A DNA stretch of 64,000 nucleotides from Marinobacter halotolerans (GTDB lineage Bacteria > Pseudomonadota > Gammaproteobacteria > Pseudomonadales > Oleiphilaceae), in the NCBI RefSeq assembly GCF_008795985.1, contig NZ_VMHP01000001.1:1736001-1800000 (forward strand). The letters are read 5' to 3'. Within the stretch, counting starts at the first letter, position 1. Every line of letters starts with the position of its first letter. This document shows, in pieces, positions 43,074 to 56,144 of this stretch. Under the pieces are notes generated by a model. The model had not been told where the DNA came from, did not search any database, and saw only the letters and a list, made by a program, of their open reading frames with translations. Position numbers and translations under genes: made by a program.

Positions 43074-43442
43074 CTATGCGACAGCAGACTCTTTATTAGC
43101 TGCCGGGATTTCTACACGGACGTTTTCGCCATCCAGCAGGACCGGGTAGGTTTTGACCTTTACGGTCTCATCTTCCAGGCACTGACCGGTTTCCAGGTTG
43201 AAGTGCTGCTTGTAAAGCGGTGAAGCCACCACCGGCTGACCTTTCAGATCCCCGGTAATGCCCCTTGCCAGCACGTTCTTCCCGGTAAACGGATCGGTAT
43301 GGCTAATCGCAAACAGCGCCGGCAACCGATGCGGCAGATAAAACACCGCCACGGGTCCATCTTCAGTCCAGACCGCAACGCCGGATTCTGCAATCAAGTC
43401 ATCAACCGTACAAACAACATCCCAACTCGTCTGTGTCTTCAT
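43074..43442 (-). CDS. nirD: Nitrite reductase (NADH) small subunit
   Basis: NirD is the Rieske-like small partner of the NirB siroheme nitrite reductase, which reduces nitrite to ammonium. The 122-residue protein shows DVVCTVDDLIAESGVAVWTE, FYLPHRLPALFAISHTDPFT, NVLARGITGDLKGQPVVASP and LYKQHFNLETGQCLED, as in assimilatory NirD. It lacks Rieske Cys-His pairs, normal for NirD. ATG 43442 is supported by GGAG upstream. Last gene of the FAD oxidoreductase-nirB-nirD operon, 189 bp after nirB. Confidence 0.92.
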   Translation of the reverse strand: MKTQTSWDVVCTVDDLIAESGVAVWTEDGPVAVFYLPHRLPALFAISHTDPFTGKNVLARGITGDLKGQPVVASPLYKQHFNLETGQCLEDETVKVKTYPVLLDGENVRVEIPAANKESAVA

Positions 43443-43534
43443 AACGTTCTCCAATCTCTTAACGGTCCTTCCACGTCATCAGCGTGAAACCCAATAAATC
43501 TGTAAGCCGCGACAACTCATAGTCCAGTGAGTGT

Positions 43535-43631: not shown

Positions 43632-46151
43632 TTAAGCAGGCTCCACCTCAGATTCGAGCACAGGCCGCTTCTGCCCCCGCTCCGAAGTCCACTGCTGCAC
43701 CGGATCCTTCTTCTCCGGCGCATTCACAAACTCGCGGAAGCGCTTGCGCTTCTCCGGGTCCTCAACGGCGGTCTTCCACTCGCACTGATAAGTGCCCACC
43801 AGGCCCTCCATGTGCTCTTCCAGCTCCGCGCCAATGCCCAGGCTGTCTTCCAGCACCACCTGCTTGAGGTAATCCAGACCGCCCTCCAGGTTTTCCATCC
43901 ACACACTGGTGCGCTGCAGACGGTCCGCCGTGCGCACGTAAAACATCAGAACCCGGTCAATGGTGGAGACCAGTTCCTCATCGTTCAGGTCGGTGGCAAA
44001 CAGGTCGCCATGGCGCGGGCGCATGCCGCCGTTGCCGCAGACGTAGAGGTTCCAGCCGTTTTCGGTGGCAATCACGCCAATGTCCTTGCTTTGGGCTTCC
44101 GCGCATTCGCGGGTACAGCCCGATACAGCAAACTTGATCTTGTGGGGGGCCCGCAGGCCCTTGTAGCGGTCTTCCAGGTGAATCGCCATGCCCACGCTGT
44201 CCTGTACGCCATAGCGGCACCAGGTGCTGCCAACGCAGGATTTCACCGTGCGCAGGGCTTTGCCGTAGGCGTGGCCGGTTTCAAAGCCGGCGGCGATCAG
44301 CTTTTCCCAGATCTCAGGCAGCTCGCTCAGGGTCGCACCGAACAGATCGATGCGCTGGCCGCCGGTGATCTTGGTGTACAGGTTGTATTCCTTGGCCACC
44401 TGGCCCAGCACAATCAGCTTGTCCGGGGTGATTTCCCCGCCCGGCACGCGGGGCACGATGGAATAGGTGCCGTTTTTCTGCATGTTGGCCATGAAGGTGT
44501 CGTTGGTGTCCTGCAGGGGCACGTGGTCGGTGGCCAGCACGTGCTCGTTCCAGCAGGTGGCCAGGATCGATCCCACCGCCGGTTTGCAGATGTCGCAGCC
44601 GTGGCCCTTGCCATGGTCACGGATCAGGGTCTGGAAGGTGCGGATGCCATTCACCTTGACCAGATGGAACAGCTCCTGACGGCTGAAGGGAAAGTGCTCG
44701 CAGATGTCCTTGCTGACTTCCACCCCGCGCTTTTCCAGCTCGCTGTCCACCACTGTTTTCAGCAGGGCGGCACAGCCACCGCAGCCGGTGCTGGCTTTGG
44801 TTTCGCCTTTGACAGCACCAAGGTCGCTGCAGCCCGCGTCAATCACGCCGCAGATGTCGCCCTTGGTGACGTTGTGGCAGGAGCAGATCGAGGCGGTTTC
44901 CGGCAGGGCATCCGGGCCCAGAGCGGGAGCACCCCCTTCACTTTCCGGAAGAATCAGCGTTTCCGGGCTCTCCGGCAGGTCGATCTCGTTCAGGGCGTAC
45001 TGCAACAGGGTGTCGTATGGGCCGTTGTCGCCGACCAGAATGGCGCCGAGCAGCTTCTTGCCGTCTTCACTGATGACCATGCGGCGGTAATGTCCCGCCT
45101 GTTCGTCATTGAAGCGGATGCTCTTGGCGCCCTCTGTCTGGCCGTGGGCATCGCCGATGGAGCCCACGTCCACGCCCAGCAGCTTCAGTTTGGTGCTCAT
45201 GTCTGCGCCGGTGAAGGCGGCTTCCTGATCGCCGTTCAGTACCGAGGCCATGGTGCGGGCCATGGTGTAGCCGGGGGCAACCAGGCCAAAGATTTTTTCG
45301 CTCCATAGGGCGCACTCGCCGATGGCGTGAATGTGCGGGTCGGAGGTGGTGCACTGATCGTTGATGATGATGCCGCCACGTTCGCCGATGTCCAGGCCGC
45401 AGCTTCGGGCCAGCGCATCCTGCGGGCGGATACCGGCGGAGAACACAATCAGGTCGGTTTCCAGATGGGTCTCGTCACTGAAGTTCATCCGCAGGCGGGC
45501 GTTTTCGCCGTCGATGATCTCGGTGGTGGCTTTTTCGGTGTGGACCTGAACGCCAAGCTCTTCAATCTTGTGCTTGAGCAGGGCGCCGCCGTCGCTGTCC
45601 AGCTGTACCGGCATCAGGCGCGGGGCAAATTCCACCACATGGGCTTCAAGGCCCAGACTTTTCAGGGCATTGGCCGCTTCCAGTCCCAGCAGGCCGCCGC
45701 CGACCACGACGCCGGTCTTCACGCCATTGGCGCTGGCGCGGATATCATCAAGATCTTCCAGGGTGCGGTAGACCAGGCAGTGAGGGTTGTCGTTGCCCTT
45801 GATGGGTGGCACGAACGGATAGGACCCGGTGGCCAGTACCAGCTCGTCGTAGGTGTATTCGCCCTGAGCTGTTTTGACTACCTGGCCGTCTCGGTCGATT
45901 CCGGTGACACCTTCGTCCAGATGCAGGTCAATCTGATGTTCGGCGTACCATTCGGCGGTACCCATGGCCAGGTCGCTGTGGGTGGAGCCGCTGAAGTATT
46001 CAGACAGGTGCACCCGGTCGTAGGCCAACAGTTTCTCTTCGCCAAATACCTTGATATCAAAGTCGGCGGCTGCAGGTGTATCCACCAGCTTTTCCAGAAA
46101 GTGGTGGCCGACCATGCCGTTGCCGATGACGATCAGTTTTTTCTTGCTCAT
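43632..46151 (-). CDS. nirB: Nitrite reductase (NAD(P)H) large subunit
   Basis: NirB reduces nitrite to ammonium with NAD(P)H through FAD, iron-sulfur and siroheme. The 839-residue protein has FAD binding (VIGNGMVGHHFLEKL), NAD binding (VVGGGLLGLEAANALKSLGL), a BFD-like [2Fe-2S] segment (ICSCHNVTKGDICGVIDAGC), and the siroheme/[4Fe-4S] cysteines KSCVGSTWCRYGVQDSVG and SGCTRECAEAQ. The frame is open to 46301, but ATG 46151 has GAGAGGAAAC upstream and starts at the FAD domain. It lies 25 bp after the FAD oxidoreductase gene. Confidence 0.95.
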   Translation of the reverse strand: MSKKKLIVIGNGMVGHHFLEKLVDTPAAADFDIKVFGEEKLLAYDRVHLSEYFSGSTHSDLAMGTAEWYAEHQIDLHLDEGVTGIDRDGQVVKTAQGEYTYDELVLATGSYPFVPPIKGNDNPHCLVYRTLEDLDDIRASANGVKTGVVVGGGLLGLEAANALKSLGLEAHVVEFAPRLMPVQLDSDGGALLKHKIEELGVQVHTEKATTEIIDGENARLRMNFSDETHLETDLIVFSAGIRPQDALARSCGLDIGERGGIIINDQCTTSDPHIHAIGECALWSEKIFGLVAPGYTMARTMASVLNGDQEAAFTGADMSTKLKLLGVDVGSIGDAHGQTEGAKSIRFNDEQAGHYRRMVISEDGKKLLGAILVGDNGPYDTLLQYALNEIDLPESPETLILPESEGGAPALGPDALPETASICSCHNVTKGDICGVIDAGCSDLGAVKGETKASTGCGGCAALLKTVVDSELEKRGVEVSKDICEHFPFSRQELFHLVKVNGIRTFQTLIRDHGKGHGCDICKPAVGSILATCWNEHVLATDHVPLQDTNDTFMANMQKNGTYSIVPRVPGGEITPDKLIVLGQVAKEYNLYTKITGGQRIDLFGATLSELPEIWEKLIAAGFETGHAYGKALRTVKSCVGSTWCRYGVQDSVGMAIHLEDRYKGLRAPHKIKFAVSGCTRECAEAQSKDIGVIATENGWNLYVCGNGGMRPRHGDLFATDLNDEELVSTIDRVLMFYVRTADRLQRTSVWMENLEGGLDYLKQVVLEDSLGIGAELEEHMEGLVGTYQCEWKTAVEDPEKRKRFREFVNAPEKKDPVQQWTSERGQKRPVLESEVEPA

Positions 46152-46176
46152 GATGTTTCCTCTCTCTTGCTGGCGG

Positions 46177-47406
46177 CTAAGCCGCTTCGCAGTAATGCTT
46201 GCCAAAGGCCAGATGATCGCGGAATGCGCTGATGTCATCTGCCTGCTGAATGCGTTCACTGAACCAGGGGCCGTCACTGGTGTCGCCAACCAGAACCACA
46301 CCTTTTAGTCGCTGATCGCAGATCAGCAGCCGGCAATAGCGGTTGGTTTCAAGGTCCTGCCAGACCACCGATTCGGTGTGCCGATCTGCACGGGTTTGGC
46401 CGCAGGAGAAAATGGGTATACCGCTGATCTTGAGCCGCGCGGGAATAGTGGCCGGTTCGAAGGCGCTGTCACTGGCCGGGTTGGCCAATTGTTCTGCCAG
46501 TACCCGGGCCTGTTGGTAGCCCGGCTCCACCAGGCCAAAGGTTTCGCCGTCAAACTCACAGCATTCGCCCAACGCGTGGATGCACGGATCGCTGGTGGTC
46601 ATTTGCGAGTCCACGACAATGCCCCGTCCGCAGGCAAGGCCCGCGTCCCTTGCAAGCTGTACGTTGGGGGTAATGCCCGCAGCGACTACAACAATGTCGG
46701 TACTGATCAGGGTTTCGTCGTCCAGTTGCACGGCGCGAACCAGGTTGCGCCCCAGGAAAGCCGAGGGCGAAGCGCCGGTGCGGATGTTCATGCCTCGGTC
46801 AGTCAGGGCATCCGCCAGCAGGACGCCGCCGGTTTCATCCAGCTGGCGATTAAGCAGGTGCTGGCTGCGGTGCAGCACGGTCACGGCCATGCCCCGGCTT
46901 CGCAGCCCTTCTGCCGCTTCGAGTCCGAGGAAGCCGCCACCAATCACCACCGCGCGGCGGTGGCGCTGGCTGAGCTCGATCAGGCGACGGGTGTCGTTGA
47001 GATCGCGGAAAACCAGCACGTTTTTGAGCCCCTCGCCCGGAATGCCCAGCGGAGCCGGCTGTGAACCGGTCGCGAAGACCAGTCTGTCGTAGCGTTCGAC
47101 CCGGCCGGCAGCCGTTGTCACGGTGCGGTTTTCCCGATCCAGGCCGGTGACCGGATCGCCCTGGTGCACGGTGATGTTGTGGCGGGTGAACCAGTCAGCG
47201 GAGGACAGGGCCAGGCTGCGCTCGTCTGCCTCACCTGCCAGCACGGACGAGAGCTGGATTCGATTGTAGGCGGGCGTGGGTTCGCCGTTGAAGACCACGA
47301 TCCGGCCATAAGGGTGCCGGGGCTGGTCAACAAGCTGCTCGAGCAGGCGTTGCGCCACCATGCCATGGCCGCAGATCACCAGCGTTTGCGGCTGCTCCGT
47401 ATCCAT
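46177..47406 (-). CDS. FAD/NAD(P) oxidoreductase of assimilatory nitrate/nitrite reduction
   Basis: The 409-residue flavoprotein resembles the N-terminal FAD/NAD half of NirB: LVICGHGMVAQRLLEQLVDQ, YDRLVFATGSQPAPLG, AVVIGGGFLGLEAAEGLRSR, and IHALGECCEFDGETFGLVEP. It has no siroheme domain. It probably delivers electrons from NAD(P)H to NasA, which lacks a flavin module of its own (as NasC or the NasB N-terminus do elsewhere). First gene of the nir operon, downstream of a sigma-54 promoter and an attenuator leader. ATG 47406 follows GGGA; in-frame ATGs further up (47436, 47541) lie in the leader. Confidence 0.85.
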   Translation of the reverse strand: MDTEQPQTLVICGHGMVAQRLLEQLVDQPRHPYGRIVVFNGEPTPAYNRIQLSSVLAGEADERSLALSSADWFTRHNITVHQGDPVTGLDRENRTVTTAAGRVERYDRLVFATGSQPAPLGIPGEGLKNVLVFRDLNDTRRLIELSQRHRRAVVIGGGFLGLEAAEGLRSRGMAVTVLHRSQHLLNRQLDETGGVLLADALTDRGMNIRTGASPSAFLGRNLVRAVQLDDETLISTDIVVVAAGITPNVQLARDAGLACGRGIVVDSQMTTSDPCIHALGECCEFDGETFGLVEPGYQQARVLAEQLANPASDSAFEPATIPARLKISGIPIFSCGQTRADRHTESVVWQDLETNRYCRLLICDQRLKGVVLVGDTSDGPWFSERIQQADDISAFRDHLAFGKHYCEAA

Positions 47407-47477: not shown

Positions 47478-47533
47478 AAAAAAAGCCGGAGTACCAATTC
47501 TTCGAAAAGATTTGATAGCCCGGCGCCAATGCC
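47478..47533 (-). ncRNA. NasT-type (ANTAR) attenuator in the nir operon leader
   Basis: Read on the minus strand, a small hairpin TTGGC-ATTGGC-GCCGG has a hexaloop with A1 and G4, the class recognised by ANTAR proteins; its core is 47522-47533. Its 3' arm GCC starts the left arm of a terminator: GCCGG...CCGGC with an inner CAAATCTT/AAGAATTG stem on a TTCG loop, then seven Ts (47484-47478). The two structures cannot coexist fully. A GC-rich hairpin (47554-47573, 7-bp stem, 6-nt loop) lies 20 nt upstream. NasT is expected to stabilise the first form and allow read-through in nitrate. Confidence 0.7.
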
Positions 47534-47601
47534 AACAACAATGATCTGATGGTCCGGCCGAATCCGCGGCCGGGACAGTCTTCCTTGTCTATCTAATACT
47601 T

Positions 47602-47617
47602 TGCGAAGGTCGTGCCA
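47602..47617 (-). promoter_or_regulatory. Sigma-54 promoter of the FAD oxidoreductase-nirBD operon
   Basis: Minus-strand TGGCACGACCTTCGCA matches the -24/-12 consensus TGGCACRNNNNTTGCW except one base, with exact GG-N10-GC spacing. The transcript would start near 47591, about 18 nt before the first leader hairpin. It is driven by RpoN with an NtrC-type activator. Confidence 0.75.
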
Positions 47618-47637
47618 ATTATTAAAAGCCCTAAAAG

Positions 47638-48525
47638 TCAGGCAGTTACTGATAATTTCGGTTCTTCTTCCTGCTCTTCTGTGCGCCGTGATAGGGCGGG
47701 TTGCACCGCAGGGGTGCCTTTATCCTCGGTCTTGCCCGGGAAACTCTGCTTTTCATAGAGGAACGATAGAACCGCCTGCCGATAGCGTACATACTCCGGA
47801 TGATCCGCCAGCGTTACCCGGTTCCGGGGCCGGGGCAGTTCGATGTGCAACTCCTCTCCGATAGTGGCGGCGGGCCCGTTGGTCATCATCACGATGCGGT
47901 CCGACAGCAGCACTGCTTCGTCCACGTCGTGGGTGATCATGATCACCGTGCTGTTCAGGTCCTGCTGGATCCTCATCAGCGAATCCTGCAGGTGGGCCCG
48001 GGTCAGTGCGTCCAACGCCCCGAAAGGTTCGTCCATCAGCAGCACGCTGGGCTTCATTGCCAGAGCGCGGGCGATGCCCACACGCTGGGCCATTCCGCCG
48101 GAAATCTCGCCGGGGCGTTTGTCCAGGGCGTGGTCCATGTTGACCAGCTTCAGGTTGTGAAGAATCCAGTCCCGGCGTTCGCGCTTGCTCATGCTCTTCT
48201 TGAACACCTGCTGTACCGCCAGCTCGACGTTTTCATACACGGTGAGCCACGGCATCAGCGAATGATTCTGGAATACCACGGCCCGTTCCGGCCCGGGGGT
48301 ATTCACTTCATGGCCATCCAGCACGCAGCCACCACGCGTAGCCTGCAAAAGCCCGGCGACAATGTTCAGAACGGTGGATTTACCGCAACCGGAGTGGCCA
48401 ATCAGCGACACAAACTCGCCTTTGCGAATCTTCAGATCAACGTTCTCCAGCGCCACGAAGGGTCCGTTCTGGGTGTCGAACGCCATCTGAACGTTGGTCA
48501 GTTCTAAATGTGGTTTGTTGCTCAT
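47638..48525 (-). CDS. nrtD: Nitrate/nitrite ABC transporter, ATP-binding subunit
   Basis: The 295-residue ATPase belongs to the NrtD/SsuB/TauB importer group. It has Walker A GHSGCGKST (about residues 43-51), FQNHSLMPWL (Q-loop), ISGGMAQRVGIARALA (signature), LLMDEPFGALD (Walker B) and ITHDVDEAVLLSDRI (H-loop). It lacks the extra solute-binding domain of NrtC. Last gene of nrtA-nrtB-nrtD on the minus strand, 10 bp after the permease. The symbol is by context. Confidence 0.88.
   Translation of the reverse strand: MSNKPHLELTNVQMAFDTQNGPFVALENVDLKIRKGEFVSLIGHSGCGKSTVLNIVAGLLQATRGGCVLDGHEVNTPGPERAVVFQNHSLMPWLTVYENVELAVQQVFKKSMSKRERRDWILHNLKLVNMDHALDKRPGEISGGMAQRVGIARALAMKPSVLLMDEPFGALDALTRAHLQDSLMRIQQDLNSTVIMITHDVDEAVLLSDRIVMMTNGPAATIGEELHIELPRPRNRVTLADHPEYVRYRQAVLSFLYEKQSFPGKTEDKGTPAVQPALSRRTEEQEEEPKLSVTA
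47702..47718. promoter_or_regulatory. NtrC-type enhancer site inside the 3' end of nrtD
   Basis: TGCACC-GCAGG-GGTGCC matches the NtrC dyad TGCACC-N5-GGTGCA at 11 of 12 positions. It lies 85-116 bp upstream of the sigma-54 promoter of the nir operon, a normal enhancer distance, but within the coding end of nrtD. Confidence 0.65.
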
Positions 48526-48535
48526 ATCAGACTCC

Positions 48536-49531
48536 TCATTCGTTCCAGGCGACTTTCTTCTGGATAACCAGCATCACCCGATCCAGTAGAAACCCGATGA
48601 AGCCGATCGCAAGTACGGCGACCATGATGCGACTCAGGGATTCGCTGCTGCCATTCTGGAATTCGTCCCAGACAAACTTCCCGAGGCCGGGGCTCTGGGC
48701 GAGCATTTCGGCGGCGATCAGCACCATCCAGGCGATGCCCAGGGAAACCCGGAGGCCGGTGAAGATCATGGGCACCGAGGATGGAAGGACGACCTTGCGA
48801 ACATGGGTCCAGAACGACAGGCGGAGCACTTTGGAAACGTTCAGCAGGTCGGGATTGACCGCCGACACACCGACACTGGTATTGATCAGCGTGGGCCAGA
48901 GGCTGCACAGGGTGACGGTGATCATTGACGTCAGGAAGGATTTCTCGAACATCGGGTCATCGCTGACGTAAGTGGCCGAGACCACCATGGTCACCAGCGG
49001 CAGCCAGGCAAGCGGGGATACCGGCTTGAACACCTGGATCAGCGGGTTTACCGCCGCCGAGAAGTGGCGGTTCAGGCCCACAATGATGCCAAGCGGTACG
49101 GCAATGACCGTTGCCAATGCAAAGCCCGCCAGCACGGTGATCAGGCTGGTCAAGATCTGGTCGAAGAATGTGGGCGCACCGGTGTAGTCGCGGATTTTCA
49201 CGTCCGCATCCGGATTCTCCGCCAGAATGCGTTGGTTGCGCTCCAATTGCATCGCCAGAAACTTGTCGGCGCGTTCACGCTGGGCGCTGTGTTCCTGCCA
49301 CAGCTGGCCGGACTGGTCCCACACCTCCGCCGGGCCTGGGAAGGCGCCGAGGGAGGTCTGTACCTGGGGGGCGGCCAGATGCCAGAACCCCAGGAACAGG
49401 ACAATGCCGATGGCGGGCAGCAACATCTGCCGGCCGGTTTCCGCAAGGCTCCGTCCGGCCAGTCGATCGGCCAGGGCGCGGAGCCAGCGCATTCCCGACG
49501 AGGTTGGAGCGTTCTGGCTGATGGTCGTCAT
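48536..49531 (-). CDS. nrtB: Nitrate ABC transporter, permease subunit
   Basis: The 331-residue inner-membrane permease of the NrtB/SsuC type has about six helices: LLPAIGIVLFLGFWHLAAPQ near residue 37, then FALATVIAVPLGIIVGLN, LAWLPLVTMVV and the C-terminal EAA-type loop INTSVGVSAVNPDLLNVSKV. An insert of about 70 residues after the first helix (residues 70-130) is typical of proteobacterial NrtB. It is cotranscribed with nrtA (50 bp gap) and nrtD. Confidence 0.9.
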   Translation of the reverse strand: MTTISQNAPTSSGMRWLRALADRLAGRSLAETGRQMLLPAIGIVLFLGFWHLAAPQVQTSLGAFPGPAEVWDQSGQLWQEHSAQRERADKFLAMQLERNQRILAENPDADVKIRDYTGAPTFFDQILTSLITVLAGFALATVIAVPLGIIVGLNRHFSAAVNPLIQVFKPVSPLAWLPLVTMVVSATYVSDDPMFEKSFLTSMITVTLCSLWPTLINTSVGVSAVNPDLLNVSKVLRLSFWTHVRKVVLPSSVPMIFTGLRVSLGIAWMVLIAAEMLAQSPGLGKFVWDEFQNGSSESLSRIMVAVLAIGFIGFLLDRVMLVIQKKVAWNE

Positions 49532-49581
49532 GTGATGTCTCCTGACATTCCGTCGTTACGGATCGTCTTTACTGGTCGTTG

Positions 49582-50949
49582 TTACGGGGTTTCAGCGCCG
49601 TTCAGGCCGATCTCGAAACTGTTGATGTAGGCGTTGGGCTCGCGGGGAGTGAACGCCACGCCGTCGATCAGTTCGCCCTGATGGGGACGGGCGAAGTTTT
49701 CCGCGTCCAGGTCCGGGAAGTCCCCGGCGCTGAGGCTGCCGTCTTCGATCAGGGATTTAGCTGCTTGCTTGTAGATGTCCGCGCGATAAACCTTGGCGGC
49801 GGTTTCCATGTACCAGTCGTCGGACTTGGGCTCGGGAATCTGGCCCCAGCGGCGCATCTGGCTGAGATACCAGATGGCATCAGACGGATAGGGATAGGTT
49901 GCGTAGTAGCGGAAGAACACATTGAAGTCAGGCACTTTTCGGACGTCGCCCTTCTCATACTCAAAGGTGCCGGTCATGGAATTGGCAATGACTTCCTCAT
50001 CTGCCCCGACATAGCTGGAGCGGGCCAGAATTTCCACGGCTTCCGGGCGGTTGGCGTTGTTGTTTTCATCCAGCCAGTGGGCGGCACGAATCAGTGCGCG
50101 CAATAGGCGAAGGTGGGTGTTCGGGTTCTTCTCGGCCCAGGCTTCGGTCACGCCAAAGACTTTTTCCGGGTTGTTGGGCCAGATTTCATAATCGGTAATC
50201 ACCGGTACACCAATGCCCTTGAACACGGCCTGTTGGTTCCAGGGCTCGCCCACACAGTAGCCTTGTATGGTTCCGGCCTCCATGGTGGCCGGCATCTGGG
50301 GCGGCGGGGTTACTGACAGGTGGACATCAGCATCGATTGTGCCACTGGTATCGCCTCTCTGCGGTGCATAAAGGCCGGGGTTCAGGCCTCCGGCGGCCAG
50401 CCAGTAGCGCAATTCGTAGTTGTGGGTGGAAACCGGAAACACCATGCCCATGCGGAAGCGTTCTCCCCGGTTGCGGTAGGATTCGATCAAGGGTTTGAGG
50501 GTGCTGGCGCTGATCGGATGAACCGGATTGCCCTGGGTATTACTCGGAATCTGCGGGCTCATCTGCTCCCAGACGTCGTTGGAAACGGTGATGCCGTTGC
50601 CGTTCAGGTCCATACTGAACGCGGTGATGATGTCCGCCTGGGTGCCGTATCCGATGGTGGCACCGAGGGGTTGGCCCGCCAGCATGTGGGCGCCGTCGAG
50701 GGTGCCTGTCACTACGCCATCCAGCAGCACCTTCCAGTTGGCCTGGGCAATCAACTCCACAAACAGGCCTTCATCCAGGAAAAAGCCTTTCTCCCAGGCG
50801 ACTGCCAGCGGGGCCATATCGGTCAGTTTGATAAACCCCAGTTTCAGATCCGGTTTTTCCGCCGGTCCGATCTCCGCCTGGGCGGTACCCAGGCCTGTTG
50901 CCAATAGTAGTGCGGCGGCCAGTGTTCTTAATTTCTTGGTGCTCTCCAT
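49582..50949 (-). CDS. nrtA: Nitrate ABC transporter, periplasmic substrate-binding protein
   Basis: NrtA binds nitrate in the periplasm for NrtB/NrtD. The 455-residue CmpA/NrtA protein has a signal peptide ([20 protein letters not shown], cut after AQA) and the family core [60 protein letters not shown] and [16 protein letters not shown] 50949 is used because GGAG lies 6-10 bases upstream and the signal peptide then starts at residue 1. First gene of nrtABD, behind a sigma-54 promoter and attenuator. Confidence 0.93.
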
Positions 50950-51000
50950 GATGTGCTCCCTGTATTGCGCCTGAAATGCGCGCCTGAAGGTTTTACAGAC

Positions 51001-51047
51001 AAAAAAAAGCCTGCCACCCGTGGTCGGGAGGCAGGCGCCAATGCCTG
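51001..51047 (-). ncRNA. NasT-type (ANTAR) attenuator in the nrtA leader
   Basis: On the minus strand, hairpin CAGGC-ATTGGC-GCCTG (51047-51032) has a hexaloop with A1 and G4. Its 3' arm is also the start of a strong terminator: GCCTGCC-T-CCCG, loop ACCA, CGGG-T-GGCAGGC, then eight Ts (51008-51001). The hairpins are therefore mutually exclusive. A second stem, CCCGGTC/GATCGGG with 7-nt loop (51069-51089), lies 21 nt upstream, matching the layout of the nir leader. The hairpin core GGCATTGGCGCC is identical in both leaders. Confidence 0.76.
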
Positions 51048-51114
51048 ATGATCTGTTTAAGGTTTCACCCCGATCGACGGAGGACCGGGAATCCAAATTG
51101 TCTGAAAGGTAACA

Positions 51115-51130
51115 AGCAGATGGTGTGCCA
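51115..51130 (-). promoter_or_regulatory. Sigma-54 promoter of nrtABD
   Basis: Minus-strand TGGCACACCATCTGCT matches the -24/-12 consensus with one change (CTGC for TTGC) and exact GG-N10-GC spacing. The start would be near 51104, about 15 nt before the first leader hairpin. The 308-bp gap between nasS and nrtA (50950-51257) holds this promoter, its possible enhancer and the attenuator. Confidence 0.77.
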
Positions 51131-51205
51131 GATTTCTATCTCATTGAAAAACATGAAGAGTTCAAAATTCGGCCGGCAAGGCAAGGGGCTCCAGAGCTCC
51201 GCGAC

Positions 51206-51220
51206 CCACCGTTTTAGTGC
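51206..51220. promoter_or_regulatory. Candidate NtrC site upstream of the nrtA promoter
   Basis: On the minus strand GCAC-TAAAACG-GTGG resembles the NtrC core GCAC-N7-GTGC (7 of 8 core bases; 8 of 12 over the longer dyad). It is 76-105 bp upstream of the sigma-54 promoter. Weaker than the site in nrtD. Confidence 0.35.
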
Positions 51221-51257
51221 GTGACGCTTCATTCCTGGGCGCCGCGCTGGGCCATGC

Positions 51258-52442
51258 TCAGTCCACCGCACCCACGCGCCAGTCGTGAAGTTGCTCTCCC
51301 AGAAGACGGTCGCTTGCCACGTGCACTGGGCCGTAGCGACCGGACAGGGTGAAGGGTTCCTGATGCCGCCCTTCCGTCTTGCTGTCGATCACCGGTGTAT
51401 CAATGCCCATGGAGGCGGCGGCCTCCCGGAACAGATCCGGACGGTAGACTTCTCTGACCATTTCGCCGGTCACCGAACCTAGTTGCTGACGTAGCGCCAG
51501 ACGGGATGCCAGCCAGTGGCCCTGGGAAACCCAGGGAAAATTGGCAGAATGCTGGAAAAAGTGCTGATGCAGGCGCGGATGGAACAGGCTGTAGGGATGG
51601 CTGTCCAGGGCGTTAATGCGCTCACCCAGGTATTCGGGGCGGGCAAGAATTTCCCGCAGCAGGCCATGGTTGTGCGCATTGTCCAACCACTGGCAGGCGG
51701 CTAACAGGGCCCGGATCAGGTGGCGATGCATGGTGCTGTGTTGTTCGGTCCAGTCCGAGCGCATGCCCAGGACCTTTTCCGGGGCGTTCTGCCATATCTG
51801 GTGTCCGGAATGGAGAATGCGCCCCAGCTGCTCGTATTCCAGCAGGCTGTTCCAGGGCTCACCTACGCAGCAGCCCTCGACAACTTCCGCTCGAAAGGCG
51901 TCGGCCATCTGAACCGGAGACACCGGAATAATCTGTACCTGTGACTGGGCATCCGGGCCCGCCGACGCCAGCCAGTCCCGCAGTTGCAGGTCGTGGCTGG
52001 ACCAGGGCGATACCGAAGCAAGGCGTATGGGTTCCCGTCGGGAGCGGGCCAGCGCCACCAGCGCATGGGCCGTGGCAATGGGATCGTCCAGATCAGTCCC
52101 TGAGGTGATCAGATAGTTGTAGATAGTGTTGTTCAGGGTAATACCGTTGCCATTGCGGCTCAGCACCATGCCAACAACCACCGGCACCCGGGGACGATCC
52201 ATTGCCAGGGACATGCTCAGGGGCATGGGAGCCAGCATATGTCCGCCATCTACCAGCCCGAAGCTCACCTTGTCCCGCAGCGATGCCCAGGACTCCTCGC
52301 GCACGAGTTCCACGTCCAGGCCTTCCGCATCGAAAAGGCCCAGCTCGCGGGCAACGATCAGTGGGGCGCTGTCCAGTAGAGGCACGAATCCGAGCTTCAC
52401 GTGAAAGCCTGAGTGCCGATGGAGTGGTGTCGGGTTTACCAT
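51258..52442 (-). CDS. nasS: NasS-type cytoplasmic nitrate sensor (CmpA/NrtA homologue)
   Basis: The 394-residue protein is a homologue of NrtA (VKLGFVPLLDSAPLIVAREL, GLVDGGHMLAPMPLSMSLAM, GCCVGEPWNSLLEYEQLG) but has no signal peptide: it begins MVNPTPLHRHSGFHVKLGF. That is the mark of NasS, which stays in the cytoplasm, binds NasT, and releases it when nitrate is bound. It follows nasT by 45 bp. AGGAAATC precedes the ATG. Confidence 0.88.
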   Translation of the reverse strand: MVNPTPLHRHSGFHVKLGFVPLLDSAPLIVARELGLFDAEGLDVELVREESWASLRDKVSFGLVDGGHMLAPMPLSMSLAMDRPRVPVVVGMVLSRNGNGITLNNTIYNYLITSGTDLDDPIATAHALVALARSRREPIRLASVSPWSSHDLQLRDWLASAGPDAQSQVQIIPVSPVQMADAFRAEVVEGCCVGEPWNSLLEYEQLGRILHSGHQIWQNAPEKVLGMRSDWTEQHSTMHRHLIRALLAACQWLDNAHNHGLLREILARPEYLGERINALDSHPYSLFHPRLHQHFFQHSANFPWVSQGHWLASRLALRQQLGSVTGEMVREVYRPDLFREAAASMGIDTPVIDSKTEGRHQEPFTLSGRYGPVHVASDRLLGEQLHDWRVGAVD

Positions 52443-52487
52443 TCAGATTTCCTGGTGTTCGGTTTCTTTATTTTGAGGCTCTCGGGA

Positions 52488-53108
52488 TTATGAGGCTCTC
52501 TGGATCTCGCCGTTGCGGTTTCGGCCTTCGGTGACCGCAATCACCCGCTCAGCCATAACTGCCAGGCGTTCACTGTGTTCCATCGCGGCACTGCGCAGCA
52601 TGCGATGGGCGGTTTCCTCGTCGCAGTTTTCGTGGCGCATGATCAGACCTTTGGCTTTCTCGATCACCTTGCGATCTTCCAGGGCGGTGCGGGTTTCCTC
52701 CAGTTCGGCCCGTAGGGCCTGGAAAGACTCGAACTGCACGACGGCTGAATCAATGATGGACCTGACCCGCTCGGGCTGGATGCCATCAATGACATAGGCA
52801 CTCACGCCAGCCTTCACGGCTGCCTGCATGGTGGCCCGGTCACAGGGTTCATTAGCTGAGAATACGATAGGCCGCGGCGCGTGGGTGTTCAGCGTACTCA
52901 GGTTCTCCAGGGTGTCCCGGTCGGGCGAGTCCATGTCGATAATGACCATATCTGGTTGATCCCTGGCGACGGCGGCTGTCAGTCCGGTGGCGTCCGGACG
53001 TTGGCGGATGACATCGTGGCCTTCGTGCCGGAGGGCTTCACACACCTGACTGGCCCGTTCCGGATCCTTGTCGATAAGCAGAATGCGAAGGGGGGTTTGC
53101 GAACTCAT
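52488..53108 (-). CDS. nasT: NasT-type ANTAR antiterminator/response regulator
   Basis: NasT binds hexaloop hairpins in leader RNA and prevents termination. The 206-residue protein has a receiver-like domain (RILLIDKDPERASQVCEALR; MVIIDMDSPDRDTL) and a C-terminal ANTAR domain (ALEDRKVIEKAKGLIMRHEN; EETAHRMLRSAAMEHSERLA). The frame is open to 54203, overlapping nasA, but ATG 53108 has GAGGAAAG upstream and starts at the receiver domain. First gene of nasTS, under a sigma-54 promoter. Confidence 0.91.
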   Translation of the reverse strand: MSSQTPLRILLIDKDPERASQVCEALRHEGHDVIRQRPDATGLTAAVARDQPDMVIIDMDSPDRDTLENLSTLNTHAPRPIVFSANEPCDRATMQAAVKAGVSAYVIDGIQPERVRSIIDSAVVQFESFQALRAELEETRTALEDRKVIEKAKGLIMRHENCDEETAHRMLRSAAMEHSERLAVMAERVIAVTEGRNRNGEIQRAS

Positions 53109-53166
53109 GATGCTTTCCTCGGTACAGGCACTGAATGCTGGGTTTGTCGCTCTGATGCCGGTTACC

Positions 53167-53182
53167 AGCAATAATTTTGCCA
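53167..53182 (-). promoter_or_regulatory. Sigma-54 promoter of nasTS
   Basis: Minus-strand TGGCAAAATTATTGCT fits the -24/-12 consensus with one change (A for C at the sixth base), an intact TTGC block and exact GG-N10-GC spacing. The start would be near 53155, 47 bp before nasT. No attenuator is seen in this short leader. Confidence 0.68.
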
Positions 53183-53339
53183 GCCCATGGGAAACGCCTC
53201 TATTGCACGGGCCTGGCTGTCGTCTGGGTTCGGCGCCACCCACTATTTCTGCCAGCTTGTGGGGCATTTTTCCGGGGACTGCACCGTAATGTGACCTGCG
53301 CCGCCCTGCTAGATCGCGGAAATTGGGGCTTTTGGGAGC

Positions 53340-53355
53340 TGGCCCTGGATTTGCA
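53340..53355 (+). promoter_or_regulatory. Sigma-54 promoter of nasA
   Basis: TGGCCCTGGATTTGCA matches the -24/-12 consensus with intact TGGC and TTGC blocks and GG-N10-GC spacing. The start would be near 53366, leaving about 97 nt of leader. It lies back to back with the nasTS promoter in the 354-bp gap 53109-53462. Only half-sites like TGCACC (53280-53285) hint at NtrC binding in between. Confidence 0.73.
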
Positions 53356-53385
53356 GCAATGTGGTTCAGGAATATAAATGACAAT

Positions 53386-53446
53386 GGCAAAGAAGCCCGC
53401 CGGTCTGCTCGATCTTCATGAGAAAGCAGACCGGCGGGCTTTTTTT
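53386..53446 (+). ncRNA. NasT-type (ANTAR) attenuator in the nasA leader
   Basis: A strong terminator has perfect arms AGCCCGCCGGTCTGCT (53394-53409) and AGCAGACCGGCGGGCT (53425-53440), a 15-nt loop and a T-run to 53446, 16 bp before the nasA start. Its left arm overlaps a short hairpin GGC-AAAGAA-GCC (53386-53397) with hexaloop A1 and G4. The stem is only 3 bp and there is no room for an upstream hairpin, so the antiterminator is less certain than in the nrtA and nir leaders. The terminator itself is clear. Confidence 0.75.
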
Positions 53447-53462
53447 GTTTACAGGAGACGCC

Positions 53463-56144
53463 GTGACTACTGAAGGCACTGCCCCGGACACTGACGACAG
53501 CTGCATTCGCACTACCTGCCCCTACTGCGGTGTGGGGTGTGGCGTATTGGCAACTGTGGAGGCTCAACAGGGCGTTGAAGGCGACCGGGCCCACCCGGCC
53601 AATTCTGGACGGCTCTGTGTCAAAGGCGCCAGCCTGCACGAGACCACGGGCCGTGAGGGCAAGCTGATGTTTCCCATGGTGCGGGGCCGTCGGCGTGACT
53701 GGAGTGTTGCGATAGACCAAGCAGCCCAAGCCATCCGTACAAGCATTGACGATTACGGGCCGGAATCGGTCGCTTTCTATCTGTCCGGGCAGCTGCTGAC
53801 CGAGGACTACTACATCGCCAACAAACTGGCCAAAGGGTTTATCGCAACCCCCCATGTAGACACCAACTCCCGACTCTGTATGTCGTCGGCGGTTGCCGCC
53901 CACAAGCGCGCCTTCGGGGCCGATGCGGTGCCGGGCTGCTATGAGGATCTCGAGCTGGCCGACCTGCTGGTACTGGCGGGCAGCAACGCGGCCTGGGCCC
54001 ACCCGGTGCTCTATCAGCGTATGAAGGCGTCTGCCCGGGAAGGCCGCCGGGTGGTGGTGATTGACCCCAGACGGACTGCCACCACCGAGCTGGCGGATCT
54101 GCATCTGGCACTGCGGCCGGGCACCGATACCATCCTGTTTAATGGATTGCTGGTATGGCTGGCCCGGCAGCAGTACCTGGATAGCGATTACATTGCCGAG
54201 CACTGTCAGGATTTTGAAGCAGCACTGGAAATGGCCGAGGCGGCGGCGCCGTCAATGGCATCGGTGGCAGAGCAGTGTGATCTGGACCCGGACGACGTGG
54301 AGGCTTTCTATCAGTGGTTCGGGCAAACGCCCAGAACGGTGACGGGATTTTCCCAGGGCATCAACCAGTCTGTCGCGGGAACCGACAAGGGCAACGCCAT
54401 CATTAACTGCCACCTGGCAACCGGGCGTGTTGGCAAACCCGGTGCCAGCCCCTTTTCCCTGACCGGCCAGCCCAATGCCATGGGTGGGCGCGAAGTCGGC
54501 GGGCTGGCAAATACACTGGCGGCGCATATGGATTACCACACCCCCGGGGCCAGGGAGCGGGTTCAGCGCTTCTGGGGATCCGAGGCCATTGCCGATGGTC
54601 CCGGTCTTAAAGCCGTGGATCTGTTCGAAGCGGTGCACCGCGGCGATATCCGTGTGTTGTGGATCATGGGTACCAACCCCGCCGTCAGCCTGCCCGATTC
54701 CGAACGGGTACAGCAGGCGCTGGCACGCTGCCCTACCGTGATTGTCTCTGACTGTACCGCCACCACCGACACCACCGTTCACGCGGATATTCTGCTGCCC
54801 GCCGCCGGTTGGGGTGAAAAAGACGGCACGGTGACCAACTCGGAAAGATGCATTTCCCGACAGAGGTCGTTTCTGCCCCTGCCCGCTGAGGTCCGACCGG
54901 ACTGGTGGATCATGAGCGCGGTGGCAGGGAAACTGGGCTTCGGCGACGCCTTTGGTTACCAGAACCCGGCTCAGATATTCCGTGAGCATGCCGCCCTGTC
55001 AGCATTCGAAAACGATGGCAGCCGGATCTTCAATATTGCCGGGCTCGCCGGAATCTCTGATGACGATTATCGATCGCTTCAGCCGGTCCAGTGGCCGGTG
55101 AACGACACCACAGAGGACGCATCAAGACTCTATGGTGATGGCCGTTTTACCACCGACAACGGCCGCGCCCGGTTTATACCGGTGGCCACCGTGCTGCCTA
55201 CGCAGCTACCGGACTCGCAGAGCCCGGTGGTGGTGAATACCGGCCGTATCCGCGACCAGTGGCACACCATGACCCGCACGGCAAACACGTCCCGTTTGCT
55301 GGCCCACCGCCAGGAACCCTTTGTCGAGATGCATCCCCAGGATCTGCACCGCTACGGAGTCATGTCGGGACACCTGGCCAGCCTCACCCTGGGGGGCGGC
55401 CGGTTCGTGGGTCGGATCAGGGAGAGCAGCCAGCAGCGGCCGGGGGAGGTGTTTATTCCCATCCACTGGAGCCGGCAGTTCAGCTCCCACGGCATTGCCA
55501 CCGTTCTGACCCGGAACGTGACAGACCCGGTGTCCGGACAGCCGGAATCCAAGCATGGCCTGGCGTCTATCAGCCCGTTTCGCGCGGCCTGGCATGGCCG
55601 CCTCCTGGTTCGCAAGAGCCGCCCCAGACGGTGGCAGGCTGACTACTGGTGTCGCGTACCTTTGGCGCACAGTGAGAGCTGGTGGCTGGCGGGTCGAACC
55701 CCTCTTGAATGGCCCGGAACTCTGTCGGACTGGCTCAACGGTCGAGCCCAGCTGGTAATGGCAGACCCGGCAGAAGGACGTTACCGGGCCGCCCGGATTG
55801 TCGACGGGCGGCTGGAAGCGGTTCTGCTGTTGGATCGCGACCCGACCCGGTTGCCGGACGTGACATGGCTGGATGCCTGTTTTGCGGAACAGGCACTGTC
55901 TGAGGCGCAGCGTCGAAACCTGCTTTCCGCCCGGGATGTGGCGGTGGAGGATACCGGCGCCATTGTCTGCAGTTGTTTTCAGGTAGGGGAGAAACAGATT
56001 GCAGGGGCGATTGACGAAGGCCGGAATACCGTCCAGGCCCTGGGCAGTACCCTGAAATGCGGCACGAACTGCGGATCCTGTATCCCGGAATTGCGCACCC
56101 TGATTGACCAGGCAGTGCCTGCAACTGTGGCGGAATCGGACTGA
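53463..56144 (+). CDS. nasA: Assimilatory nitrate reductase catalytic subunit
   Basis: NasA reduces nitrate to nitrite in the cytoplasm using molybdopterin (bis-MGD) and a [4Fe-4S] cluster. The 893-residue protein starts with TTCPYCGVGCGVLATVEAQQ (cluster cysteines), then GRLCVKGASL, VDTNSRLCMSSAVAAHKRAF, GQPNAMGGREVGGL, and the C-terminal molybdopterin-binding domain (VVVNTGRIRDQWHTMTRTAN). It ends in a BFD-like [2Fe-2S] domain (CSCFQVGEKQI; CGTNCGSCIPELR). GTG 53463 follows AGGAG; the in-frame ATG 53418 lies inside the terminator hairpin and is unlikely. Confidence 0.94.
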   Translation: MTTEGTAPDTDDSCIRTTCPYCGVGCGVLATVEAQQGVEGDRAHPANSGRLCVKGASLHETTGREGKLMFPMVRGRRRDWSVAIDQAAQAIRTSIDDYGPESVAFYLSGQLLTEDYYIANKLAKGFIATPHVDTNSRLCMSSAVAAHKRAFGADAVPGCYEDLELADLLVLAGSNAAWAHPVLYQRMKASAREGRRVVVIDPRRTATTELADLHLALRPGTDTILFNGLLVWLARQQYLDSDYIAEHCQDFEAALEMAEAAAPSMASVAEQCDLDPDDVEAFYQWFGQTPRTVTGFSQGINQSVAGTDKGNAIINCHLATGRVGKPGASPFSLTGQPNAMGGREVGGLANTLAAHMDYHTPGARERVQRFWGSEAIADGPGLKAVDLFEAVHRGDIRVLWIMGTNPAVSLPDSERVQQALARCPTVIVSDCTATTDTTVHADILLPAAGWGEKDGTVTNSERCISRQRSFLPLPAEVRPDWWIMSAVAGKLGFGDAFGYQNPAQIFREHAALSAFENDGSRIFNIAGLAGISDDDYRSLQPVQWPVNDTTEDASRLYGDGRFTTDNGRARFIPVATVLPTQLPDSQSPVVVNTGRIRDQWHTMTRTANTSRLLAHRQEPFVEMHPQDLHRYGVMSGHLASLTLGGGRFVGRIRESSQQRPGEVFIPIHWSRQFSSHGIATVLTRNVTDPVSGQPESKHGLASISPFRAAWHGRLLVRKSRPRRWQADYWCRVPLAHSESWWLAGRTPLEWPGTLSDWLNGRAQLVMADPAEGRYRAARIVDGRLEAVLLLDRDPTRLPDVTWLDACFAEQALSEAQRRNLLSARDVAVEDTGAIVCSCFQVGEKQIAGAIDEGRNTVQALGSTLKCGTNCGSCIPELRTLIDQAVPATVAESD

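Follow-up and report, generated by a model that had tools for sequence, protein, structure and literature searches.

Leaders of the nitrate locus of Marinobacter halotolerans as probable NasT-read attenuators, largely with a single canonical hexaloop

The RNA target of ANTAR proteins is described as two hairpins, P1 and P2, both closed by a hexaloop with A at position 1 and G at position 4 (A1/G4), of which the second overlaps an intrinsic terminator (PMC3369931, PMC3369936); the dual hexaloop is also given as the ANTAR target in PMC8934654. EutV was reported to bind single hexaloops, one at a time, with G4 stacked and A1 not contacted, yet its read-through needs both loops, which the authors explain by recruitment of the dimer through P1; according to the same report, how single hexaloops are used should be studied further (PMC8934654). 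For NasR, affinities of about 12 µM for P2 alone and about 1 µM for P1P2 were given (PMC7496416). In Paracoccus, NasS is described to hold NasT in the absence of nitrate and nitrate to release NasT, and binding of the nasA leader RNA by NasT after nitrate is described in the same report (PMC3795266). Here, the nitrate locus of Marinobacter halotolerans is analysed in a stretch of 64,000 nucleotides (nt) of contig NZ_VMHP01000001.1 (positions 1,736,001 to 1,800,000), which is called the window and to which all coordinates refer. The leaders of nasA, nrtA and the nir operon are probably nitrate-controlled transcription attenuators read by NasT and largely of a single-hexaloop type. The single canonical hexaloop per leader, the missing textbook first hairpin and the similar leaders in NasR relatives are new compared to the preliminary description of this DNA. 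The following features were identified in the three leaders; promoter scores refer to our own consensus of the -24/-12 type (TGGCAC-N5-TTGC) with a maximum of 15.6.

53340..53355, plus strand: sigma54-like promoter of nasA, TGGCCCTGGATTTGCA, score 13.9, predicted start at about 53366, kept in same-genus leaders
53386..53397, plus strand: P2 mini-hairpin of nasA, GGC-AAAGAA-GCC
53395..53446, plus strand: intrinsic terminator of nasA, 15-bp stem and U tract, the 5' arm opening with the 3' arm of P2
51115..51130, minus strand: sigma54-like promoter of nrtA, TGGCACACCATCTGCT, score 14.2, predicted start at about 51104
51069..51089, minus strand: upstream hairpin of nrtA, CCCGGTC-CTCCGTC-GATCGGG, with a 7-nt loop which is not AnnGnn
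51032..51047, minus strand: P2 mini-hairpin of nrtA, CAGGC-ATTGGC-GCCTG
51001..51036, minus strand: intrinsic terminator of nrtA
47602..47617, minus strand: sigma54-like promoter of the nir operon, TGGCACGACCTTCGCA, score 14.6, the best of the window, predicted start at about 47591
47554..47573, minus strand: upstream hairpin P1 of nir, CCGGCC-GCGGAUUC-GGCCGG, or 7 bp with the hexaloop CGGAUU
47520..47535, minus strand: P2 mini-hairpin of nir, TTGGC-ATTGGC-GCCGG
47478..47524, minus strand: intrinsic terminator of nir

As proposed in the preliminary description, each leader contains a GGC-AnnGnn-GCC hairpin which feeds the 5' arm of the terminator, so that in nasA, nrtA and nir alike the GCC is the 3' arm of P2 and the beginning of the terminator 5' arm at once. 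A P2 of at least 3 bp with an A1/G4 hexaloop and a 3' arm overlapping the terminator is thus present in all three leaders, each behind a -24/-12 element. When both strands of the window were scanned for AnnGnn hexaloops with at least 3 bp and a 3' arm running into a terminator of at least 6 bp before a T-tract, exactly these three leaders were obtained; with the 15 remaining letter classes in loop positions 1 and 4, there were 0 to 3 matches each and 12 in total (not inspected individually). In the 3.78-Mb genome, the pattern GGCANNGNNGCC-N15-45-TTTTTT was found in the same three leaders, counted at more than one T-tract end, and at one place without a terminator, and its reversed control gave one match.

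Minimum free energy (MFE) folds contained the terminator in all three leaders. In comparison to 200 shuffles, the folds of nasA and nrtA were better than every shuffle, and the fold of nir was matched or beaten by 6 of 200. The stem energies range from -2.8 to -7.0 kcal/mol for P2 and from -17.3 to -35.5 kcal/mol for the terminators, with nasA at the extremes (-2.8 for P2 versus -35.5 for the terminator). Since P2 is much weaker than the terminator, it would have to be held by a protein. No curated Rfam family matched at its gathering score, and the sole match at E<=1 was to a microRNA precursor, far under its cut-off. A long helix in the nrtA MFE fold (CAGACAA/TTGTCTG) was judged to be a chance pairing, its 5' half not being kept in the closest relative.

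The proposed mechanism can be outlined as follows. RNA polymerase with sigma54 would start at each of the three promoters, presumably controlled by NtrC under nitrogen shortage. In the absence of nitrate, NasS would keep NasT, the GCC would pair into the terminator, and transcription would stop. With nitrate, the freed NasT would bind the P2 hexaloop; P2 would retain the GCC, the terminator stem would be shortened, and the polymerase would proceed into nasA, nrtABC or nir. For nasA, this switch would have to act through P2 alone. At nir, an upstream hairpin, which in relatives has an enlarged loop with A-N-G-G-A, may remain a recruitment hairpin. The anatomy of the leaders, their conservation and covariation and the lack of a canonical P1 were established computationally; start sites, NasT binding, read-through and the response to nitrate are predictions from the sequence.

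NasT was identified in 25 of 120 genomes of the genus, M. confluentis being the closest named relative. Conservation was followed in 24 syntenic loci of Marinobacter in addition to the window and counted over readable leaders; for nrtA, L055 was left out, as its match is the NasS gene. P2 with A1 and G4 is present in 68 of the 70 NasT-type leaders (22 of 24 for nasA, 24 of 24 for nrtA and 22 of 22 for nir), each of the 68 with a sigma54-like site of at least 12.9 upstream. Positions 2, 3, 5 and 6 of the loop vary; 12 leaders of four extra genomes, found by the A/G detector, were also taken into this count, which makes it conditional on A1/G4. Non-conserved leaders or freely mutating loops, which had been named as outcomes that would speak against NasT control, were looked for: the leaders are conserved, and the loops have two exceptions among 70. 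One of these, the nasA leader of L033 (M. iranensis), should escape attenuation after a deletion. The 12-mer common to nrtA and nir in the window had been considered notable; it does not last, the loops of nrtA and nir being unlike each other in most relatives.

A covariance alignment had been proposed as a check on the leaders. The terminator and upstream stems covary; P2 is nearly invariant and therefore gives no covariation. The nir terminator helix is 97.1% paired, with both-side changes in 4 of 10 pairs, and the nir P1 helix 95.1%, with both-side changes in 2 of 6. For nrtA, 13 of 28 leaders were aligned (alignment A3); in these closer relatives, the upstream helix is 90.1% paired with both-side changes in 5 of 7 pairs, and the terminator helix 91.6%, one of its 11 pairs being open in 11 of the 13 sequences. 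Slid controls were 15-53% paired (15-46% for nir alone) versus 91-96% for the true stems.

The nrtA and nir terminators are located between genes of the same strand, and all three terminators could be ordinary ends of upstream transcripts (nasTS, nrtABC), with P2 arising in the terminator arm by chance. This is very unlikely, because nasA is divergent from nasT and no nas gene precedes it on its strand, and because each terminator starts 40-79 nt past a sigma54-like element. In addition, A1 and G4 are kept in 68 of 70 P2 loops while the other positions vary, and no further real P2-terminator overlap with a GGC stem exists in the 3.78-Mb genome, in which other P2 stem sequences were not sought. 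Thus, attenuation of nasA, nrtABC and nir from their own promoters is the preferred explanation.

The first hairpin of the textbook target, at least 3 bp with an A1/G4 hexaloop, was found in none of the three leaders of the window. The predicted start lies 20 nt before the P2 stem in nasA, 59 nt in nrtA and 58 nt in nir. Within the 20 nt of nasA, no hairpin of at least 4 bp was identified. A hairpin CCUGGAU..UUCAGG found before the nasA P2 overlaps the sigma54-like promoter and is therefore probably untranscribed. The second GC-rich hairpin that had been described upstream of P2 in nrtA and nir is present, with a linker of 23 nt to the GGC (21 nt to the 5-bp stem) in nrtA and of 20 nt in nir; the loops of both hairpins break the ANTAR rule, the nir loop reading G-C-G-G-A-U-U-C. 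A weak P1 in the nir linker (C-AUUGUU-G, a closing pair followed by a mismatch) was discarded, since it is altered in relatives (AUUAGU in L044).

The occurrence of P1 was then surveyed in the Marinobacter group (the window, L032-L055, L125, L075, L077 and L078) and at order level, where 100 loci from 125 NasT genomes gave 14 families with leaders. A leader required a sigma54-like score of at least 12 within 130 nt, and P1 an AnnGnn hexaloop on at least 3 bp with at least two G-C among the inner three. After removal of two chance rows in L032 (at 4910 and 8862, apart from its leaders, one of them dual) from 71 raw rows (2 dual), one of 69 Marinobacter-group leaders contained a canonical P1, the nrtA leader of L046. 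With the same detector, canonical P1 was found in all leaders of f18 (8/8), f7 (3/3), f40 (2/2), f32 (2/2), f27 (1/1) and f33 (1/1), in part of those of f38 (1/4), f23 (1/5), f5 (1/4) and other named loci (7/14), and in none of those of Tamilnaduibacter (0/3), f14 (0/6), f37 (0/4), f11 (0/2) and f34 (0/1). Since P1 was found in f18, f7 and f40, the detector sees it where it is present. Outgroup rows were kept even where chance-like (L173, L211 at 354, L080 at 15494), and L160, L211 at 354, L226, L227 and L234 were scored dual owing to a second AnnGnn hairpin downstream. Fisher's test of 2 of 71 rows against f18 gave 1.7e-9, uncorrected for kinship. Canonical hairpins numbered 0.6-1.3 per shuffled leader set, in shuffles which preserve base content only, versus 0, 1 and 0 observed.

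Family f18, which we take to be Pseudomonas-like, has P1 and P2, unlike the window. Its loci L226, L227, L239 and L240 carry a dual-hexaloop leader before a nasS-like gene (31-33% to NrtA); in these loci, NasT may regulate its own operon. Three leaders of f14 were counted with P2 4-5 nt past the predicted start; in the P2-only leaders L205, L206, L209 and L214 of this family, the hairpin begins 4-5 nt downstream of the predicted sigma54 start. A frame of 414-420 amino acids (aa) with a signal-peptide-like beginning comes after the leader in L205 and L209, and nasT lies 284-290 nt downstream of it in L206 and L214.

Leaders of the same kind were identified in Marinobacter genomes with a NasR-like protein in place of NasT. 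Genomes were called NasR if a frame of at least 400 aa had an ANTAR match together with a NIT match, and one example was NIT-ANTAR by Pfam. NasR-like genomes amount to 62 of 120 (recounted by script from hand-typed tables; the protein of G070 is split over two contigs), G022 has both NasT and NasR, and 25 of 120 genomes gave no ANTAR match. Among the 95 NasT-less genomes, 80 were searched for nirB, with 57 matches, of which the best 30 loci were read. From these, 27 belong to NasR genomes; the others are G079 (broken frame), G013 (partial, odd ANTAR match) and G053 (none). The same nir leader with an AnnGnn P2 is present in 28 of these best 30 loci. The exceptions are L294 (G053), without a leader and without a NirX start, and L288 (G013), with the loop GCTGGC. 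The nrtA search matched in 33 of 40 NasT-less genomes; in the 30 loci taken, 28 of them from NasR genomes, P2 has A1 and G4 in 29, the exception being L312 of G013 (TTTGGT). Some A1/G4 assignments were made by eye from the sequence (nrtA of L299, L304 and L309; nasA of L299 and L305), and the gene labels of a few leaders in the upstream-hairpin survey rest on a motif and could be incorrect (L311). From these comparisons, a single set of RNAs appears to answer to two sensors across Marinobacter, NasS-NasT or NasR.

It might be argued that the leaders are still dual-hairpin targets, the upstream GC-rich hairpin being P1 and NasT tolerating a loop of 7-9 nt or larger. For nir, the P1 stem covaries, and an A-N-G-G-A loop of 7-9 nt is present in 16 of 22 NasT-type and 27 of 28 NasT-less leaders, a pattern which suggests that P1 is still read; in L288 (G013), whose P2 has G1, P1 is a true hexaloop, AUGGAC (read by eye). 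In f23 nasA, three of five leaders have a hexaloop P1 with G1 (GACGAT, GACGAA, GATGAA) and one a canonical P1 (AACGCT), and the P1-P2 gaps of 20-23 nt fall inside the linker range of 2-25 nt of the dual stem-loops curated in the ANTAR RNA survey PMC8164766. On the other hand, the upstream loops of nrtA vary from 3 to 13 nt in relatives; because the stem is kept in close relatives and the loop is not, this pattern suggests at most a structural spacer. The NasT-less nrtA leaders have 27-55 nt (82 in one) before P2, with strong stems in 3 of 27. In the window, the nir P1 loop has G1 and nasA has no hairpin from the predicted start to P2. Dual-hairpin recognition is considered less likely than the single-hexaloop type.

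Several observations weigh against NasT-read attenuators of a single-hexaloop type. Antitermination by EutV is held to require both hexaloops, correctly spaced, in two studies (Walshe et al., PMC8934654; Ramesh et al., PMC3369931). The nrtA leader of L046 contains a strong canonical P1 of 6 bp (GCTGCC-AGCGCC-GGCAGC) about 46 nt before P2, which also favours dual-hairpin recognition and is perhaps the surviving ancestral form. P1 forms outside the filter would go unseen, and the starts are only predicted, so that a start farther upstream would give space for more structure. The L033 deletion took away the nasA P2 together with the terminator 5' arm, and the L051 nasA loop is GCCGAA, with G1. 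In the NasT-less genomes, A1 and G4 are kept in only 20 of 30 nasA P2 hairpins; from the others, two have G1, two lost G4 (L304, L320), five lost the terminator, and one (L306) was left unassigned. Further pair types in the nir alignment (14) are in no excess over shuffles (13.8), and once P2 forms part of the structure, the observed covariation value is equalled by 500 of 500 shuffles.

With these points considered, the joint control of reductase, transporter and nitrite reductase by one NasS-NasT switch, as had been predicted, is supported indirectly by the single ANTAR protein, the conserved A1/G4 P2 and the covarying stems. The more general proposal, that single-hexaloop antitermination with a sufficient P2 and a dispensable P1 operates in Marinobacter and several related families, nasA being the clearest case, and that a fixed RNA regulon had its sensor exchanged, is plausible and is put forward tentatively. 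A nearly fixed G4, an A1 which is sometimes G and a lost P1 would fit the EutV contacts; if the attenuators work, they would contradict a requirement for P1.

The five nasA leaders without a terminator (the NasR-type loci L315, L318, L319, L321 and L322) bring up another explanation, that the nasA P2 acts on translation by hiding or exposing the ribosome site, with a secondary role for the terminator. In these leaders, a 5' remnant of P2 is mostly kept near the start codon; the remnant of 5' arm and loop is clear in L318, L319 and L321 and now resembles a ribosome site, like CAGGCAAAGAGG (altered in some) right before the start codon. ANTAR RNAs covering ribosome sites are described in PMC3369931. 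For the window, a role in translation is most improbable: the likely ribosome site of nasA, ACAGGAGA, lies beyond the terminator and outside P2, and the terminator is strong (-35.5 kcal/mol). Transcription attenuation is therefore preferred for nasA as well.

The window leaders share with the dual-hexaloop targets of EutV at eut, NasR at nasF and AmiR at amiE (Ramesh et al. 2012, PMC3369931) the A1/G4 P2 of at least 3 bp with a terminator-shared 3' arm, the genome-encoded ANTAR protein and the presence of several attenuators at one locus. They differ by the lack of a canonical P1 and, in nasA, of any upstream hairpin; they would thus work like ANTAR attenuators and fail the dual-hexaloop feature. 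The NasS-NasT systems of Azotobacter, Pseudomonas, Paracoccus and Bradyrhizobium also have adjoining nasT and nasS and attenuator-type leaders at nas and nir genes, whereas the window has P2 only or P2 with an odd P1, at three separate sigma54-like promoters. Work on P. aeruginosa nirBD (Romeo 2012) and on A. vinelandii (Wang 2012) is reported as well. Three matched leaders at one locus had been regarded as unusually complete, a view that does not hold: the trio is common in the genus, four attenuators are described for the eut locus of E. faecalis (PMC3369931), and NasT of P. putida is reported to activate nitrate reductase as well as nirBD (PMC7261876).

In the minimal ANTAR motif of Walshe et al. 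(2022, PMC8934654), the unit of contact is a single hexaloop, as would be the case in the window, and the contacts described there predict the pattern of the window group, with G4 strictest and A1 sometimes G. In that work, single hexaloops are expected where no polymerase race takes place; here, they are found inside attenuators. With the Klebsiella NasR/nasF system, about half of the Marinobacter genomes searched share a NasR-like protein, and those read have leaders of the same kind. Differences are that the window genome has NasT and that the leaders are without a canonical P1, a hairpin on which the full in vitro affinity of NasR depends (PMC7496416). In the titles and abstracts searched, subscription papers being mostly outside, nothing was found on P2-only attenuators or on a NasT/NasR swap at genus level. 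Surveys requiring two hexaloops (PMC8164766) would miss single-hexaloop leaders, so that ANTAR regulons would be undercounted. The need for P1 is left open in the model of PMC8934654, and a locus in which a single NasT meets three P1 states (no P1, a P1 with a variable loop and one with an enlarged loop) offers a natural test of it. If the exchange of NasT and NasR over conserved leaders is true, ANTAR output and sensor input evolve separately.

The genes of the locus are listed below. All are oriented leftward, in the order nasT, nasS, nrtABC, NirX-nirB-nirD, except for the divergent nasA.

53463..56144, plus strand: nasA, molybdopterin nitrate reductase with a BFD-like domain (PF00384, PF04879, PF01568, PF04324)
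52488..53108, minus strand: nasT, 206 aa, receiver-like domain and ANTAR (PF03861 at 9.6e-18, PF00072)
51258..52442, minus strand: nasS, putative nitrate/nitrite sensor of the NMT1-like family (PF13379), named from locus and homology
49582..50949, minus strand: nrtA, binding protein of a nitrate ABC transporter (PF13379; nrtABC together PF13379, PF00528 and PF00005)
48536..49531, minus strand: nrtB, after nrtA
47638..48525, minus strand: nrtC, after nrtB
43632..47406, minus strand: NirX and nirB (PF07992, PF18267, PF01077, PF03460, PF04324)
46177..47406, minus strand: NirX, FAD oxidoreductase with Rubredoxin_C
43074..43454, minus strand: nirD, after nirB, named by synteny in relatives

The locus thus contains both nasS and nasT, the latter with an ANTAR domain. 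As described earlier for the locus, nasT is encoded here, and in a search of its own genome NasT was the only ANTAR protein (one match). Eight sigma54-like sites of at least 13.9 were found in the window; three belong to the leaders, and a fourth lies upstream of nasT. A sigma54-like site, TGGCAAAATTATTGCT, is located at 53167..53182 on the minus strand, about 60 nt before nasT. In L025/L054 (M. salarius R9SW1), a stop interrupts nasT; the neighbouring genes are incomplete too, which may be a sequencing error. Residue 168 of NasT, corresponding to the G4-stacking Tyr164 of EutV, is His in both the window and L032, and Tyr or Phe in the other readable Marinobacter. His168 was considered as the cause of P1 loss and rejected as a simple cause, since the majority-Tyr Marinobacter are also without canonical P1. 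Among 182 aligned NasT proteins, His168 was also identified in families f11 (3 of 3), f14 (8 of 9) and f38 (4 of 4).

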